Assembly: GCF_002157835.1 (NCBI RefSeq)
Contig: NZ_CP020809.1
Location: 2,232,001-2,296,000 of the forward strand
Direction of reading: 5' to 3'
Source: Mycobacterium dioxanotrophicus
GTDB taxonomy: Bacteria; Actinomycetota; Actinomycetes; Mycobacteriales; Mycobacteriaceae
DNA: 64,000 bases
The position numbers and the translations under genes were made by a program. This document shows positions 40,255 to 61,743 of this stretch, one piece after another (positions within the stretch are counted from its first letter, which is position 1; each line of letters starts with the position of its first letter). The notes beneath the pieces are model-generated. The model searched no databases and was not told the DNA's origin. It was given only the letters and a program-made list of their open reading frames with translations.

Positions 40255-41058
40255 TCACACCCGCGACGTTGCGGGATCACCGCCGAAGCGCCCGGCCAGC
40301 CACACCGGGATGATGGCCAGCACGGTAAGGGCGGCGGCGACCACATTGATGACCGGTGCCTGATTCGGGCGGAACAAGTTGGCGAAGATCCAGATCGGCA
40401 GGGTCTGCACTGTCGGGCCCGCGGTGAACGTGGTGACGACGATCTCGTCGAACGACAGCGCGAAAGCCAGGATCGCCCCGGCCAGCAGCGCCCCGCGCAT
40501 CAACGGGAAGGTGACGAGGCGAAACGTCTGCCAGTCCGAGGCGCCGAGGTCGGCTGATGCGTCTTCGAGGTTGGTGCCCATCTGACGCAGCCTGGCCTGA
40601 ACGTTGTTGAACACGATGACGATGCAGAACGTGGCGTGGCCGATGATGACCGTCGCCAGCCCGAGCGTCATCGCCAAGGTCGAGGTGAACGTCGCGTTCA
40701 AGGCGATGCCCGTGACGATACCGGGCAGCGTGATCGGCAGGACCACAAGGAAACTCACGGTGTTGCGGCCGAAGAACCGGTACCGCTGGACGGCGAACGC
40801 CACCATGGTGCCGAGCACCAGGGCGATGACCGTGGCGGCCAGGCCCACCACGACGGAGTTGGCGAGCGCCTGCCACATGCCCGTGCTGTGTGCGGCGGCC
40901 GACCACCACGCCAGGGTGAAACCGGTGGGAGGGAACGCGAACGTGCGTGAGGCGTTGAACGCGTTGAGTACCACCAGAATCAGTGGGGTGTAGAGGAACA
41001 CCATGACCGCGACGGTCCAGATGCGAAGCCCGCGTCGTCCTGCGCTGGAGAACATCAC
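40255..41058 (-). CDS. potC: ABC transporter permease, spermidine/putrescine type
   Basis: 267 aa with six membrane helices. The permease EAA loop is visible as NLEDASADLGASDWQTFRLVTFP, quoted from its middle. Together with PotB it forms the channel of a polyamine-type importer. It overlaps potB by four bases (ATGA). Last gene of the leftward operon potA-potD-potB-potC. Polyamine specificity is by family only. Confidence 0.88.
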   Translation of the reverse strand: MMFSSAGRRGLRIWTVAVMVFLYTPLILVVLNAFNASRTFAFPPTGFTLAWWSAAAHSTGMWQALANSVVVGLAATVIALVLGTMVAFAVQRYRFFGRNTVSFLVVLPITLPGIVTGIALNATFTSTLAMTLGLATVIIGHATFCIVIVFNNVQARLRQMGTNLEDASADLGASDWQTFRLVTFPLMRGALLAGAILAFALSFDEIVVTTFTAGPTVQTLPIWIFANLFRPNQAPVINVVAAALTVLAIIPVWLAGRFGGDPATSRV

Positions 41059-41894
41059 ACGTTCTCCAGCGCGCCGGTGCGCCGCATCGCGAGCAGGTAG
41101 GCGACGATCGCGACCAGCGGGATGGCCGACAGCGCCGCGGCCAGCGGCTGGTTGTTGGCGGTGACGAGTTGCCCGTAGATGATGTTGCCGAGCATTTGGG
41201 TCTTGCCGCCGACGATGGTCACCGCGATGTAGTCGCCCAGGGACAGGGAGAAGGTGAAGATGGAACCTGCCGCGATGCCCGGGAACACCAAGGGCGCCAA
41301 GATCAGTCGCAACGTGGTCAGGTCAGAGGAGCCGAGATCGGCACTGGCGTCGATCAGCGAGTCCGGGACGCGTTCGAACGCCGCATAGACCGGCATCACC
41401 ATGTACGGCAACCACAGGTAGGTCAGCGTGATGATCGTGGCGACCAGCCCGTAGCCGGGGGTGAAGCCCGTCGCCCAGGACAACGGGCCCGCCGGCGACA
41501 GCAGCATGCGCCACGCGTAGGCCTTCACCAGGTAGCTCGCCCACAGCGGCGTGGTCACGGCGACCACCAGGGCCAGTCGCACCCGTCGAGAGGCGACCTT
41601 GGCCATGTAGAGCGCCAGTGGTACGGCCAGCGCCGCGCAGCACACAGTGACCGTGGCCGCCACCGCCAGGGTGCGCAACGTCGCGATCCGGAACACCTCG
41701 TCGGTCAGCACCCGCACGATGTTGTCGCCGGTGAAGGTGCGCACCACCGCGCCGGTGAACTCGTCGGTGCTCCAGAACGCCGAAACCAGAAGAACGGCAA
41801 GCGAACCCAGATACGCCACCACCAGCCAGGTGAGCGGCGGCGCCAGCAGGAACGCCAGCCGCACCCGACGGGTCAGCCCTTGACCTGCTGCCAC
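41055..41894 (-). CDS. potB: ABC transporter permease, spermidine/putrescine type
   Basis: 279 aa from GTG 41894 (overlapping the potD end by 22 bases). GTG 41864, eight bases after the potD stop, is an equally possible start and begins at the first helix (VRLAFLLAPPLTW). Six membrane helices; the EAA loop reads LIDASADLGSSDLTTLRLILAP. Coupled to potD upstream and potC downstream. Confidence 0.87.
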   Translation of the reverse strand: MAAGQGLTRRVRLAFLLAPPLTWLVVAYLGSLAVLLVSAFWSTDEFTGAVVRTFTGDNIVRVLTDEVFRIATLRTLAVAATVTVCCAALAVPLALYMAKVASRRVRLALVVAVTTPLWASYLVKAYAWRMLLSPAGPLSWATGFTPGYGLVATIITLTYLWLPYMVMPVYAAFERVPDSLIDASADLGSSDLTTLRLILAPLVFPGIAAGSIFTFSLSLGDYIAVTIVGGKTQMLGNIIYGQLVTANNQPLAAALSAIPLVAIVAYLLAMRRTGALENV

Positions 41895-43072
41895 TTGTCG
41901 ACCCACTGGCTGTAGGCCGTGCAGTTGTTGCCGCTGCCGTCGACGCACTGGGTCTGCGGCGTGGTCCAGTAGTGGATCTGTGCGGCGTAGTCGGCGTCGG
42001 TGGCGTGGTAGATGTCGCAGAAATCCTTCTGCGTGGTGTGCTCACAGGCCTTCGTCTGCGCCGGTGCCTCACCGAAGTACTCCGCCACCTGGGCGTTGAT
42101 TTCGGGCGAGGTGATCCAGTTCATCCACTTGTACATGCAGTTGGGGTGGGCGGCTTTCGACGAGATCATCCAGGTGTCCGACCAGCCCGTCGACCCTTCC
42201 TTGGGCAGCACGGTGTTGACCTGGACCTTGTTGTCACCGCCGATGGTGTTGGCGATCACCTGCCACGTGGTGCCGATGACCGTGGTGCCGGATTCGAAGG
42301 CCTGGACTTCCTTGGTGTAGTCCGACCAGTATTCGCCGATGTTCTCGCGCTGGGCCTTGAGCAGATCCGTTGCGGCGTCGAGTTGTTCGCTGGTCAGCGA
42401 GTACGGGTCCTTGATGCCCAGCTCCGGTTTCGTCTTGGACAGGTACAACGCGGCGTCGGCGATGTAGATCGGGTTGTCGTAGGCGGTGACCTTGCCCTTG
42501 TACTTGCCTGCGTCGGTGAACACCGCCGCCCAGGAGTTGGGTGCGTCGCGCACGGCATCGATGTTGTACATCAACAGATTTGCGCCCCAGCCGTGCGGGA
42601 TCCCGTACATCTGCTTGTCCACGGAATTCCACGGCTTGTCCTTGAGGAACGGTGAGATCGTGGCGTAGTTGGGCACCAGGTCGGTGTTCACCGGTGACAC
42701 GTCACCGGCGTAGATGAGCCGCAGCGTGGCATCTCCGGACGCCGAGACACCGTCGTACTGCCCGCTGCGCATCAGCTGCACCATCTCGTCCGAGGTGTTG
42801 CCGATCTTGACGTTGACCTGGCAGCCGGTCTGCTGCTGGAACGGCGTGACCCAGTCGACTTTCTTGTCGTTCGAGCCGTTTTCGGCATAGCCCGCCCACG
42901 CGATGAGGTTCAACTGTCCTTCGCCGTTGCCGACCGAACTCAGCGGTTCGAGCTTCGGTGGCGCGTTTCCGGTGGTTCCCGGGGTCTTGGACCCGGAGCA
43001 TGCCACGACCAGCGTGACGCACGCGGCGATCACCAATCCCGCACGCAGAGCTCGGATTCTCTGAGTTCTCAC
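41873..43072 (-). CDS. potD: Polyamine-type ABC transporter substrate-binding lipoprotein
   Basis: 399 aa. A lipoprotein signal ends in LVVAC with Cys25. The mature part has the PotD pattern LNLIAWAGY, TSDEMVQLMRSGQYDGVSAS and a Trp/Asp-rich pocket; four cysteines lie near the C-terminus. The GTG start is partly made by the insertion element: G is the terminal base of the IS and TG comes from the target duplication. Without the IS, the start would be ATG with AAGGAG six bases upstream (now at 44762-44776), and the protein sequence would be the same. Its native ribosome site and potA-linked transcript are thus cut off. Confidence 0.9.
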   Translation of the reverse strand: MRTQRIRALRAGLVIAACVTLVVACSGSKTPGTTGNAPPKLEPLSSVGNGEGQLNLIAWAGYAENGSNDKKVDWVTPFQQQTGCQVNVKIGNTSDEMVQLMRSGQYDGVSASGDATLRLIYAGDVSPVNTDLVPNYATISPFLKDKPWNSVDKQMYGIPHGWGANLLMYNIDAVRDAPNSWAAVFTDAGKYKGKVTAYDNPIYIADAALYLSKTKPELGIKDPYSLTSEQLDAATDLLKAQRENIGEYWSDYTKEVQAFESGTTVIGTTWQVIANTIGGDNKVQVNTVLPKEGSTGWSDTWMISSKAAHPNCMYKWMNWITSPEINAQVAEYFGEAPAQTKACEHTTQKDFCDIYHATDADYAAQIHYWTTPQTQCVDGSGNNCTAYSQWVDKWQQVKG

Positions 43073-43115
43073 CCAGATTTTTCGGGGATTATCGCTGGTG
43101 ACGGCGTGTAGATAA

Positions 43116-43189
43116 GCGAAAGTGCCTGTCCTGCAAGGGATAATTGGACTTCTCTAGGGTTCAACCATCCTGACGGGAAGGCACTTCGC
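43116..43189 (+). promoter_or_regulatory. Subterminal inverted repeat before the transposase start
   Basis: GCGAAAGTGCC (43116-43126) pairs with GGCACTTCGC (43180-43189), ending two bases before the GTG. The same arrangement exists in the second IS copy (60005-60075 region). In RNA it would hide the ribosome site of the transposase. Confidence 0.5.
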
Positions 43190-43191
43190 AG

Positions 43192-44591
43192 GTGAAGAGT
43201 ATCGCGGCCGCATCGCGGGTGAAAGTGTCAGCCGACGGCCACGGGGTCGTGTCGCACGCCGGGATGGGCCTACTGCGGGAACTGGCCGACCGGACCGGGT
43301 TATCAGCGCAGGTCACCGGGGCTTTGGCCGACACCTACCGCGGGCCGTGGAGCTACGCACCCGGCGAGGTGTTCGCTGATCTGGCCGCGGCGGTCGCCGA
43401 CGGCGCGGACTGCATTGACGGGGTCGGCCAACTGTGCGGCGACCGTGAGCACGCGTTCGGCGCGAAAGCCTCCACGACCACGATGTGGCGGCTGGTCAAT
43501 GAGCGCATCGACGCTGCACACCTGCCTGCGGTGCGCGCGGCCCGCGCCAGCGCGCGGGCGGCGGCCTGGGCCGCCGGTGCGGCCCCGAACCGGGTGGCTG
43601 GCTGCACATCGACATCGACGCCACCCTGGTGATCGATCACTCCGACAACAAACACGGCGCGACGCCGACCTGGAAGAAGTCGTTCGGGCACCATCCGCTG
43701 CTGGCGTTCCTGGACCGCCCGAGATCGCCGGCGGGAAGCCCTGGCCGGGCTGCTGCGCAGCGGCAACGCGGGCTCCAACACCGCCAGCGACCACGTCATC
43801 GTCCTGGCCCAGGCGCTGGCAGCGCTGCCCGCGCCGTGGCGGCCCGACTCGAGTCGTGGCGGTGATCCCGACCGGCCCAGGTGCTGGTGCGTTGCGACAC
43901 CGCCGGAGCCACCCACCGATTCGCCGACGCCTGCCGTGAGCAGGGGTCGGATTCTCCTTCGGCTACCCGTCGACGCCCGCGTCCAGGACGCCGTGGACAC
44001 ACTCAACCTTGCCGAGGGCTGGTACCCGGCCATCGACACCGACGGTGGGCTGCGCGACGGCGCCTGGGTCGCCGAGGCCACCACCTTGGTCAACCTCAAC
44101 AGCTGGCCGCCGGGCACCCGGCTGATCCTGCGCAAAGAGAGACCGCATCCCGGCGCCCAGCTGCGGTTCACCGACACCGACGGGATGCGCGTCACCGCGT
44201 TCATCACCGACACACCGCCCGGTGTCGTGGCCGGCCAAGTCGCCGGCCTGGAGTTGCGGCACCGCCAGCACGCCCGCGTCGAGGACCGCATCCGCGAACT
44301 CAAGAACGCCGGCCTGCGCAACCTGCCGTGTCACGGCTTCTGGGCCAACGCCGCCTGGCTCGAGATCGTCCTGGCCGCCGCCGACCTGGTCATCTGGGCA
44401 CGGCTCATCGGATTCACCAGTGATCCGACGCTGGCCCGCGCCGAGATCGCCACGTTCCGCTACCGCGTGCTGCACGTCGCGGCCCGCATCACCCGCGGCG
44501 CCGCCAACTCCGGCTGCGCATCGACGCCACCTGGCGCTGGGCCACCTCGATCGCGACCGCCTGGCAGACGATCCGCACCGCCTTCGGATAA
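43192..44591 (+). pseudogene. IS1380-family transposase, frameshifted
   Basis: Comparison with the copy at 60077-61482 shows the same protein, but broken at several places. There is a -1 frame change near 43590 (shared with the other copy), loss of one C in a C-run and one G in a G-run near 43719-43735, a further deletion near 43930, and another frame change near 44505. Conserved pieces remain readable: TWKKSFGHHPLLAFLDRP, RCDTAGAT, LNLAEGWYPAI, RHRQHARVEDRIREL. Changes in homopolymers could partly be sequencing errors, but their number argues for a dead gene. Confidence 0.88.
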
Positions 44592-44787
44592 CAGCCGGCC
44601 TCCTGACCGATCGATCACGAAAGACATACCGGCCCTAGGAAAGCCCGCCCCACCCGGCGACACGGGACCAACCCACCATGCCCTGTGACCGCAGACGTCA
44701 CCCGACCAACCATCACGCCCTACAGATCCACCGCCATCACCATCGACGAAAAATCCGGGCTCATCGTCGGCTCCTTGATCTCGTGAC

Positions 44788-45876
44788 TCAACCGTCGAGG
44801 TGGTGGACTGCGGATTCCGGCCAGGTCAGGGTGATCGCCGAACCGTGCGCCAGATCGCTGGGCAGACCGGCGGTGGCCGTGAGGACGTTGGCCGCCAACG
44901 AGACTCCGGTGGCGGTTCGTGCCGCGACGCGGGTCAGCGGACCGGCATAGATGATCTCGGTCACCGTGGCGTCTACGGCGCGGTACCCCGGCGCTGCGGG
45001 TGTGTTGTTGTGCTGCACCGAGATTCGTTCGGGCCGCACAGCAAGCGTCCCGGATCTGCCGAACACGGTCTCGGCATCGGCGCCCTCGAGGACGTTGGAG
45101 GTGCCGACGAAATCGGCGACGAACCGGTTGGCGGGCCGGTCATAGACGTCGCGCGCGGCGCCCACCTGTTCGATGCGGCCGGCGTTGAACACCGCGAGCC
45201 GGTCGCACAGGGTGAGGGCCTCATCCTGGTCGTGGGTGACGATGACGAAGGTGATGCCGACCTCACGCTGGATCGCCTTCAGCTCGACCTGCATCTGCTC
45301 GCGCAGCTTGAGATCCAGCGCACCGAGCGGCTCGTCGAGCAGCAACACGCGTGGCCGGCCGACGAGAGCCCGGGCCAGCGCCACCCGCTGGCGCTGACCG
45401 CCGGACAACTGGGCCGGCCGGCGCGGCGCCTGGTCGGTCAGCCGCACCATGTCCAGCGCGTCGGCGGTGCGCCTGCGCCGTTCGGCTTTGGGCACGCCCT
45501 TGACCCGCAGACCGTATTCGACGTTCTGGGCGACAGTCAGGTGGGGAAACAGCGCGTATTCCTGGAAAACGGTGTTGACGTCGCGTTTTCGCGCCGGTAC
45601 CGAGGTGACGTCGAGGCCACCGAGCCGAATGGTGCCTGCGGTGGGTTCCTCGAAACCGGCGATCATCCGCAGCACGGTGGATTTCCCCGAACCGGATGGG
45701 CCGAGGATCGCGAACAGTTCTCCATCGGCGATCGACAGGTCGGCCGACTCGACCGCGACCACGGAGTGCCGGGCATCGCCGAACACCTTGCGCACGCCGA
45801 CGAGTTCGATGCGCGGTTCGGTGCCGGAGGGCGCGCCGGGGGTATCGGGCGGTGAGCTGACCATCCCCGAGGACAT
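44788..45876 (-). CDS. potA: Polyamine-type ABC transporter ATP-binding protein
   Basis: 362 aa. Walker [10 protein letters not shown] is near residue 60, Q-loop [10 protein letters not shown] near 104, signature [15 protein letters not shown] near 157, Walker [12 protein letters not shown] near 178, switch His in VTHDQDEA, and a C-terminal TOBE-type regulatory domain. First gene of the operon, but now separated from potD by the 1.7-kb IS. TACGAT eight bases before the ATG (45890-45885) fits a leaderless promoter. Originally its stop lay 23 bases before the potD ATG. Confidence 0.93.
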
Positions 45877-46048: not shown

Positions 46049-46762
46049 GTGTCGATGTCCCGGCGCGAGCTGCTCAGATGTGCCGCCGCTGCACCCGCGC
46101 TGCTCGGGCTGGGCGAGCTGGCTGCCGCGCCACCGGCTGCCGCCGCGCCGTTGGGCGTCCTGCTCGACTACGCCGCCGGCGTCATCAAGGCCTCCGACAT
46201 CCGATCGGCGGGCGCTCTCGGTGCGATCCGCTACGTGTCCGATCGCCGCCCGGGCGGGGCCTGGATGCTCGGCAAGCCGATCCAGCTGCCAGAGGCTCGG
46301 GACCTCTATCAGGGTGGTCTGAAGATCGTGTCCTGCTACCAGTACGGCAAGCAGGACAGTGCCGACTGGCTCGGCGGGCAGGCTGCGGGCGTGCAGCATG
46401 CCAAACGGGGTTGGGATCTGCACGTTGCTGCGGGTGGTTCCTACGGCGCCCCGATCTACGCGTCCATTGACGACGACCCGACACCCCAGCAGTACAAAGA
46501 GCAGGTCGCACCGTATCTCCGGGGCTGGGAATCGGTGATCGGCCACCAGCGCACCGGGGTCTACGCGAATTCCAAGACCATCGAATGGGCGTTGCAGGAT
46601 GGGCTCGGCTCGTACTTCTGGCAGCACAACTGGGGATCGCCGGGAGGCGTCGCGCACCCGGCGGCGCATCTGCATCAGATCGAGATCGACAAGCGCAGCG
46701 TCGGGGGAGTTGGTGTCGACATCAACAACATCCTCAAGCCCCAGTTCGGCCAGTGGGACTAA
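46049..46762 (+). CDS. Tat-exported DUF1906 (glycoside-hydrolase-like) protein, Rv2525c homologue
   Basis: 237 aa. The N-terminus MSMSRRELLR followed by an Ala/Leu-rich core is a twin-arginine signal. The mature domain (GVLLDYAAGVIKASDI, AIRYVSDRRPGGAWMLGKP, YASIDDDPT, GVYANSKTIEWAL) is DUF1906, a TIM-barrel related to glycoside hydrolases. It matches the gene next to fas in M. tuberculosis, whose product is secreted by Tat and affects the cell wall. GTG start with a leaderless-type -10. Confidence 0.93.
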   Translation: MSMSRRELLRCAAAAPALLGLGELAAAPPAAAAPLGVLLDYAAGVIKASDIRSAGALGAIRYVSDRRPGGAWMLGKPIQLPEARDLYQGGLKIVSCYQYGKQDSADWLGGQAAGVQHAKRGWDLHVAAGGSYGAPIYASIDDDPTPQQYKEQVAPYLRGWESVIGHQRTGVYANSKTIEWALQDGLGSYFWQHNWGSPGGVAHPAAHLHQIEIDKRSVGGVGVDINNILKPQFGQWD

Positions 46763-59956: not shown

Positions 59957-60076
59957 CCCGAATTTTTCGCGGAATGTTGCCTTTGGCGGTGTGTAGATAA
60001 GCGAAAGTGCCTGTCCTGCAAGGGATAATTGGACTTCTCTACGGTTCAAAGATCCTGACGGGAAGGCACTTCGCAG

Positions 60077-60517
60077 GTGAAGAATATCGCGGCCGCATCG
60101 CGGGTGAAAGTGTCGGCCGACGGCCATGGCGTCGTGTCGCATGCCGGGATGGGCCTGCTACGTGAACTGGCCGATCGGACCGGGTTATCGGCGCAGGTCA
60201 CGGCTGCTTTGGCCGACACCTACCGCGGGCCGTGGGTGTATGCGCCCGGAGACGTGTTCGCTGATCTGGCGGCTGCGGTTGCTGACGGGGCGGACTGCAT
60301 CGACGGGGTCGGCCAGCTCTGCGGCGACCGTGAGCACGCCTTCGGTGCGAAAGCCTCGACGACCACGATGTGGCGGCTGGTCGATGAGCGCATCGACGCC
60401 GCACACCTACCCGCGGTGCGGGCGGCCCGAGCGGGCGCGCGGGCGGCGGCCTGGGCCGCCGGTGCCGCCCCGCTCCGGGTGACTGGCTGCACATCGACAT
60501 CGACGCCACCCTGGTGA
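60077..60517 (+). CDS. IS1380-family transposase, N-terminal frame
   Basis: 146 codons from GTG 60077. Residues 1-135 are normal transposase (VKVSADGHGVVSHAGMGLL, TTTMWRLVDERIDAAHL). The last part TGCTSTSTPPW is a wrong-frame reading of the conserved DWLHIDIDATLVIDHSDNK. A -1 change at about 60478 would join it to the next frame. The same break exists in copy 1. Confidence 0.85.
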   Translation: MKNIAAASRVKVSADGHGVVSHAGMGLLRELADRTGLSAQVTAALADTYRGPWVYAPGDVFADLAAAVADGADCIDGVGQLCGDREHAFGAKASTTTMWRLVDERIDAAHLPAVRAARAGARAAAWAAGAAPLRVTGCTSTSTPPW

Positions 60518-61482
60518 TCGATCACTCCGACAACAAAGGCGGTGCGACGCCGACCTGGAAGAAGTCGTTCGGGCACCATCCGCTGCTGGCATTTCTGGAC
60601 CGCCCCGAGATCGCCGGCGGGGAAGCCCTGGCCGGGCTGCTACGCACCGGCAACGCCGGCTCCAACACCGCCAGCGACCACGTCATCGTGCTGGCCCAAG
60701 CGCTGGCAGCGCTGCCCGCGGCCTGGCGACCCGACCCCAGGGCTGGCGATCATCCCGACAAGCCCAAGGTGCTGGTGCGCTGCGACACCGCCGGAGCCAC
60801 CCACACCTTCGCCGACGCCTGCCGGGCCGCCGGGGTGGGGTTCTCCTTCGGTTACCCCGTCGACTGGCGCGTCCAAGACGCGGTGGACACCCTCAACCTC
60901 GCCGAGGGCTGGTACCCGGCGATCGGCACCGCCGGCGGTCTCCGCGACGGCGCCTGGATCGCCGAAGCCACCACCCTGGTCAACCTGTCGTCGTGGCCAC
61001 CGGGCACGCGGCTGATCCTGCGCAAAGAAAGGCCGCATCCGGGCGCCCAGCTGCGATTCACCGACGCCGACGGGATGCGGATCACAGCGTTCATCACCGA
61101 CACACCACCCGGCGTCGTGTCAGGACAGGTCGCCGGCCTGGAACTGCGCCACCGTCAGCACGCCCGCGTCGAAGACCGCATCCGCGAACTCAAAGCCACC
61201 GGCCTGCGCAACCTGCCCTGCCACTCATTTTGGGCCAACGCCGCATGGCTGGAAATCGCCCTCACCGCCGCCGACCTGGTCACCTGGTGCCGACTCATCG
61301 GATTCCGCACCCACCCGGGCCTGGCCCGCACCGAGATCGCCACCTTCCGCTACCGGGTCCTCCACGTCGCCGCCCGCATCACCCGCAGCGCCCGCCAAAC
61401 ATGCCTACGTCTCGACGCCACCTGGCGATGGGCCGCCCAGATCGCGACCGCCTGGCAGCACATCCGCACCGCCTTCGACTGA
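60514..61482 (+). CDS. IS1380-family transposase, C-terminal frame
   Basis: 322 codons to the stop at 61482. It contains TWKKSFGHHPLLAFLDRPEI, VRCDTAGATHTF (second catalytic Asp), RHRQHARVEDRIREL (Glu) and the end ATWRWAAQIATAW. The first catalytic Asp (DIDATL) lies just upstream in the same frame, so only a fusion with the preceding frame gives a full DDE enzyme of about 470 aa. An independent start at GTG 60514 (overlap GTGA) would lack it. Confidence 0.85.
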   Translation: MIDHSDNKGGATPTWKKSFGHHPLLAFLDRPEIAGGEALAGLLRTGNAGSNTASDHVIVLAQALAALPAAWRPDPRAGDHPDKPKVLVRCDTAGATHTFADACRAAGVGFSFGYPVDWRVQDAVDTLNLAEGWYPAIGTAGGLRDGAWIAEATTLVNLSSWPPGTRLILRKERPHPGAQLRFTDADGMRITAFITDTPPGVVSGQVAGLELRHRQHARVEDRIRELKATGLRNLPCHSFWANAAWLEIALTAADLVTWCRLIGFRTHPGLARTEIATFRYRVLHVAARITRSARQTCLRLDATWRWAAQIATAWQHIRTAFD

Positions 61483-61743
61483 TCCACAGCTCATCTGATC
61501 CAACTGACGAAAGGCCCACTGGCCCTGGGAAAGCCCGCCCAGCCCGGCGATAAGGGACCACCCCGCCACGCCCCGTGACCGCAGAAGCCACCTCACGGCC
61601 CATCTTGCCCCAACGCTCCACCGCAATCACCTTGGACGAAAAATCGAGGCTAAGGTCAAAAGCGGATCTTGGCCGGGGGAGACGCGCCGGGATTCGAGCG
61701 GAATCGCAACACGGGCCTGCCGTGTGACAAGGGGAGATCTGCA

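Follow-up and report, generated by a model that had tools for sequence, protein, structure and literature searches.

The pot operon of Mycobacterium dioxanotrophicus carries an insertion sequence of the IS1380 family within the start codon of potD, the gene for the binding protein. The window analysed here is a stretch of 64,000 nucleotides of contig NZ_CP020809.1; the features of interest are compiled in Table 1. The first base of the present potD start codon, a GTG, belongs to the element, and the reading frame of the gene remains complete. In the reading that we consider probable, the element arrived recently, and the resulting separation of potDBC from potA has strongly reduced the expression of potDBC.

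Table 1. Features of the potA-potD junction and its surroundings (window coordinates).
Feature	Position	Strand	Remark
potC (permease)	40255..41058	-	
potB (permease)	41055..41948	-	
potD (binding protein, 399 aa)	41873..43072	-	closer to YdcS than to PotD in NCBIfam
Target duplication CTCA, potD side	43068..43071		equal 4-bp flanks
Present GTG start codon of potD	43070..43072	-	G from element, TG from duplication
IS1380-family element	43072..44759	+ (transposase strand)	antisense to pot genes; transposase frame broken in this copy
Left terminal repeat	43072..43089		18 nt
GATAAT, near-consensus -10 facing potD	43088..43093	-	15 nt ahead of GTG
14-codon frame (plus stop)	44720..44764	-	opened by native ATG; runs into right end of element
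Right terminal repeat	44742..44759		18 nt
Target duplication CTCA, potA side	44760..44763		equal 4-bp flanks
Surviving native ATG	44762..44764	-	potA side
Surviving native AAGGAG	44771..44776	-	potA side
potA (ATPase)	44788..45876	-	

The insertion and the rebuilt start codon

On the minus strand, potD now begins with GTG AGA ACT CAG. The target CTCA is the complement of bases 2-5 of the potD sequence ATGAG, and both sides of the element read TGAG on this strand. The base preceding TGAG is the element's terminal G on the potD side and the native A on the potA side. Because TGAG was duplicated and only the copy next to potD abuts the G of the element, potD received a GTG, while the native ATG persists on the potA side. 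Whenever an element with a terminal G inserts between the first and the second base of a start codon, the result is GTG. As the codon follows automatically from this geometry, neither selection nor a special mechanism is needed: The rebuilding is a geometric accident and involves no precision on the part of the element. A preliminary description of the locus had called it a precise and rare start-codon swap. The precision has to be given up, since geometry sets the outcome; the rarity holds within the sample presented below. Its other statements on the site agree with the window sequence. These are the CTCA duplication on both sides of the element, the composition of the GTG, the succession of potA stop codon, AAGGAG and six-base spacing, and the distance of 1.7 kb that now separates the native ribosome site from potD.

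The uninterrupted potA-potD junction that had been predicted for relatives was found in three of them. A sequence pattern taken from the potD start led to three contigs, in a search that may omit records of the own genome. In M. brisbanense JCM15654, M. aquaticum RW6 and Mycobacterium sp. 852013-50091, the potA stop codon is followed by AAGGAG, six bases and ATGAGAACTCA, and the junction is free of the element. Their alignments to the window stop at 43071 and restart at 44760 with an overlap of four bases and identities of 92.8-95.7%; the host is closely related to the three species. As all three keep the junction uninterrupted, the arrangement in the window is an insertion into a native ATG. 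A native GTG without insertion was considered as well and is ruled out by the ATG at the uninterrupted junction of the three relatives.

The element is 1,688 bp long, and the complementarity of its terminal inverted repeats (18 nt) is 83%. For membership of the transposase in the IS1380 family, we used the model NF033539 with its cut-off of 180 bits. In the window copy, the transposase is split into two pieces, which scored 77 and 143 bits and are thus both below the cut-off. An intact copy in the same genome (L007) covers the whole model with 353 bits, which confirms the family assignment made in the preliminary description. A 97% identical copy in genome G152 also covers the whole model (359 bits), and each of these two copies encodes a transposase of 468 aa; the longest stop-free stretch spans 351 codons in the window copy versus 474 in L007 and in the G152 copy.

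The host genome (8.08 Mb, five contigs) contains seven near-identical copies of the element (L001-L007) and five copies of a subfamily with 86% identity; together, these copies are spread over the large contig and three of the smaller contigs. The presence of near-identical copies at separate sites of one genome suggests recent transposition. An alignment of the seven has nine variable columns, all of which are single gaps at G or C, and shows no substitutions. This pattern probably reflects recent spread together with assembly noise in repeats, and some of the gaps may be real frameshifts. Note that these gaps call for caution with frameshift calls in the repeats of this assembly. A second IS1380-type copy is located in the window at 59957-61649 (L010); it belongs to the 86% identical subfamily and has CTAA on both flanks. 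The left ends of 92 copies possess an inner stretch (e.g. 43103-43130; outward CTTTCGC.TATCTACAC) which is conserved across distant subfamilies and is perhaps a transposase-binding or a promoter site. The 25 nt closer to the tip are variable among the 92 copies.

Consequences for expression of potDBC

The genes potA, potD, potB and potC are all open frames. When compared with NCBIfam, the product of potD scored 372 bits with YdcS (cut-off 725), 57 bits with PotF (636) and 53 bits with PotD (582). All values are below the respective cut-off, and the product is assigned to neither PotD nor PotF; its top PDB sequence match is 6nlp. For this transporter, "polyamine" is a label only. Strong matches to potD (E < 1e-200) occur in 61 of 198 genomes of the genus, the own genome included; the pot system is thus dispensable across the genus. 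The sole other match in the own genome is 28% identical (E 6.8e-4), and the host possesses no close second copy of potD. The promoter of the operon is probably located just before potA, because an open frame divergent from potA lies upstream at 46049 (+).

The probable course of events is as follows. An IS1380-family element, having recently spread in this genome, transposed into a CTCA at the start of potD. Owing to the four-base duplication, bases 2-5 stayed with potD; the A gave way to the G at the tip of the element, and both a legal start codon and the entire PotD protein were preserved. At the same time, potDBC lost its connection to potA, to the native AAGGAG and to the probable promoter of the operon, where operon and promoter are suggested by the gene order. 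A transcript from potA would have to traverse 1.7 kb antisense to the transposase; the read-through product would then present a GTG which has weak ribosome-site pairing and which adjoins a repeat predicted to pair with the opposite end of the element.

In agreement with the poor ribosome site noticed earlier at the GTG, the computed pairing with the anti-ribosome-site is -2.0 kcal/mol at this codon versus -8.2 kcal/mol in the relatives. Of 3000 random 21-mers, 81% match or exceed the pairing of the sequence upstream of the GTG, and 8% match or exceed that of the native site. For the two ends of the element, a pairing energy of -20.2 kcal/mol was computed. Two weak terminator-like sites directed against the pot genes were found within the element (43667 and 44645, minus strand); such sites are few, as the 3-kb region, both strands considered, has three versus 0.9 expected.

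Alternatively, the left end of the element could serve as promoter of potDBC: Transcription driven by GATAAT would yield a short leader, the GTG would be translated in a leaderless-like manner, and potDBC would be independent of potA. Judged from the usual spacing, the predicted leader is about 7-10 nt long; our criterion for leaderless transcripts is a leader of at most 5 nt before ATG or GTG. Near-consensus -10 hexamers are scarce, as the window contains only 11 on both strands; three of these belong to the window's pair of IS1380 copies, and two of the three lie at the expected transposase promoter. When the bases of the element end were shuffled, 567 of 20,000 shuffles had a hexamer of this kind 6-20 nt ahead of the terminus; the corresponding count for sampled window positions is 24 of 18,270. 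Moreover, PMC6448022 states for M. smegmatis that about a quarter of the transcripts are leaderless and that ATG or GTG suffices. However, a promoter scan gave no two-hexamer match. Among the 36 distinct left ends, only 2, found in 8 of the 92 copies, have GATAAT at the same place, and it is therefore not a conserved part of the family. In addition, the outward promoters of IS1380 elements described in PMC9330008 are tied to the DNA at the 3' end, which here faces potA; potD lies at the opposite end. We regard an element-driven potDBC as the less likely reading, but as a serious rival.

More doubtful still is the general proposition that elements of this IS1380 subfamily have a portable gene start at their left end, with a near-consensus -10 hexamer about 15 nt from the terminal G and a GTG arising at targets that begin with TG in outward direction, which would make potDBC a separate operon. 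If it were true, a single insertion would equip a gene with a promoter as well as a start codon, both of them new, and potDBC would be expressed from a short-leader or leaderless transcript, uncoupled from potA.

The element might also be of little effect, given read-through from upstream of potA and adequate translation from the GTG. In this context, weak ribosome-site pairing is not peculiar to the GTG of potD: At the other starts as called, the values are -0.7 (potA), -3.0 (potB) and -6.4 kcal/mol (potC), so that potA and potB have weak sites, too. For M. smegmatis, PMC6448022 reports a canonical site in only 47% of leadered genes. A search for strong intrinsic terminators directed against the pot genes found none. 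Nevertheless, the 1.7 kb of antisense sequence, the two weak terminator-like sites and the loss of a strong native site make an inconsequential insertion improbable, and strongly reduced expression is the outcome that we favour.

Target preference and recurrence

In order to characterise the targets, 93 copies from 32 genomes were surveyed, these being the best-scoring copies only. Both ends, comparable to those of the window element, were located in 89 copies; the remaining four were set aside due to masked flanks (two) or a missing end (two). The 4-bp flanks are equal in 73 of the 89 copies and unequal in 16, 10 of which differ by one base. The equal-flank targets are CTAG (36), CTAA (16), TTAG (5), GTAG (5), CTAC (3), CTCA (2), TTAA (2) and four further sequences that occur once each. 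The element disfavours CTCA as a target, because this sequence is far commoner in the window than CTAG (324 sites on both strands versus 18) and yet makes up only 2 of 73 targets. At CTAG and CTAA targets, a boundary GTG is impossible.

For boundary GTGs, 396 genomes of the genus were searched with a 15-letter pattern consisting of the element end followed by TG; no mismatch was allowed, and divergent ends would be missed. The 13 matches are distributed among 12 genomes. According to the left-end motif and blastn comparison with the element, three of them are real element ends, namely those in the window, in G139 and in G030. The site in G139 (L106/L133; G139:C1:1867779-1867793) is the only other equal-flank CTCA insertion and likewise has a boundary GTG, which opens a 174-aa frame containing part of a response regulator. 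Relatives of this regulator in 20 other genomes align from query residue 10 or later, and the GTG is likely upstream of the regulator's start. The boundary GTG of G030 opens a frame of 67 codons that looks like the interior of a membrane transporter. As far as could be told, the GTG in the window is the only one of the three that falls on a gene start. This exact-match search of the 396 genomes revealed no second clear start-codon swap; in this sample, the swap is rare and represents one event. In 2 of the 89 surveyed copies (L064 and L079), the duplication's final base is at the same time the initial base of a possible start codon, and the corresponding frames comprise 267 and 257 aa.

These data bear on the idea that the IS1380 family habitually targets start codons for insertion. 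L064 and L079 are in line with it, as are the preferred targets CTAG and CTAA, which are expected chiefly at gene ends and between genes because they contain a stop codon. On the other hand, exactly these targets exclude a boundary GTG, CTCA accounts for only two of the equal-flank sites, the second CTCA insertion (L106) lies outside the aligned region of its response regulator, and a single start-codon instance makes no trend. Such targeting is thus very improbable. An assembly artefact with wrong junctions or a misplaced element is hardly credible: The single G/C gaps among the seven copies do resemble uncorrected long-read noise in repeats, but the equal 4-bp flanks match the single CTCA of the relatives on both sides, which a mis-joined repeat would rarely accomplish.

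Relation to known systems

In the literature searched, we found no precedent for a start codon that is made by an insertion sequence, and no paper on a CTAG target site of IS1380 or on ISMav7. The "new start codon" mentioned in PMC5678879 concerns a transposase gene, and PMC8485053 provides promoter background only. The locus offers a clean natural case of a transposon inside a start codon where both the reading frame and a legal start are preserved, and the reasons for this can be given exactly. It is also a direct test case for the translation, in a mycobacterium, of a gene that has the end of an insertion sequence as its leader. Note that gene-finding programs would report an intact potD despite the lost ribosome site and the lost operon link.

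The gene cluster resembles ABC operons of the potABCD and ydcSTUV type in the consecutive arrangement of ATPase, binding protein and two permeases; it differs in that the binding protein is closer to YdcS than to PotF or PotD. With the IS1380 family (ISMav7-like mycobacterial elements, ISPme1, ISEcp1, IS1247), the element shares the transposase model, the terminal repeats and the short target duplication of 4-5 bp, here CTCA on both sides. Its DNA is up to 84% identical to plasmid copies, one of which is annotated as ISMav7 family. The duplication comprises four bases here and five in IS1247, according to PMC3281130. As in insertions that place a promoter before a neighbouring gene, the element is located directly upstream of an intact gene and has an outward -10-like hexamer; the differences are that it additionally contributes the G of the GTG start codon and that its promoter is only a candidate. 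The insertion is a familiar type of event with a neat geometry.
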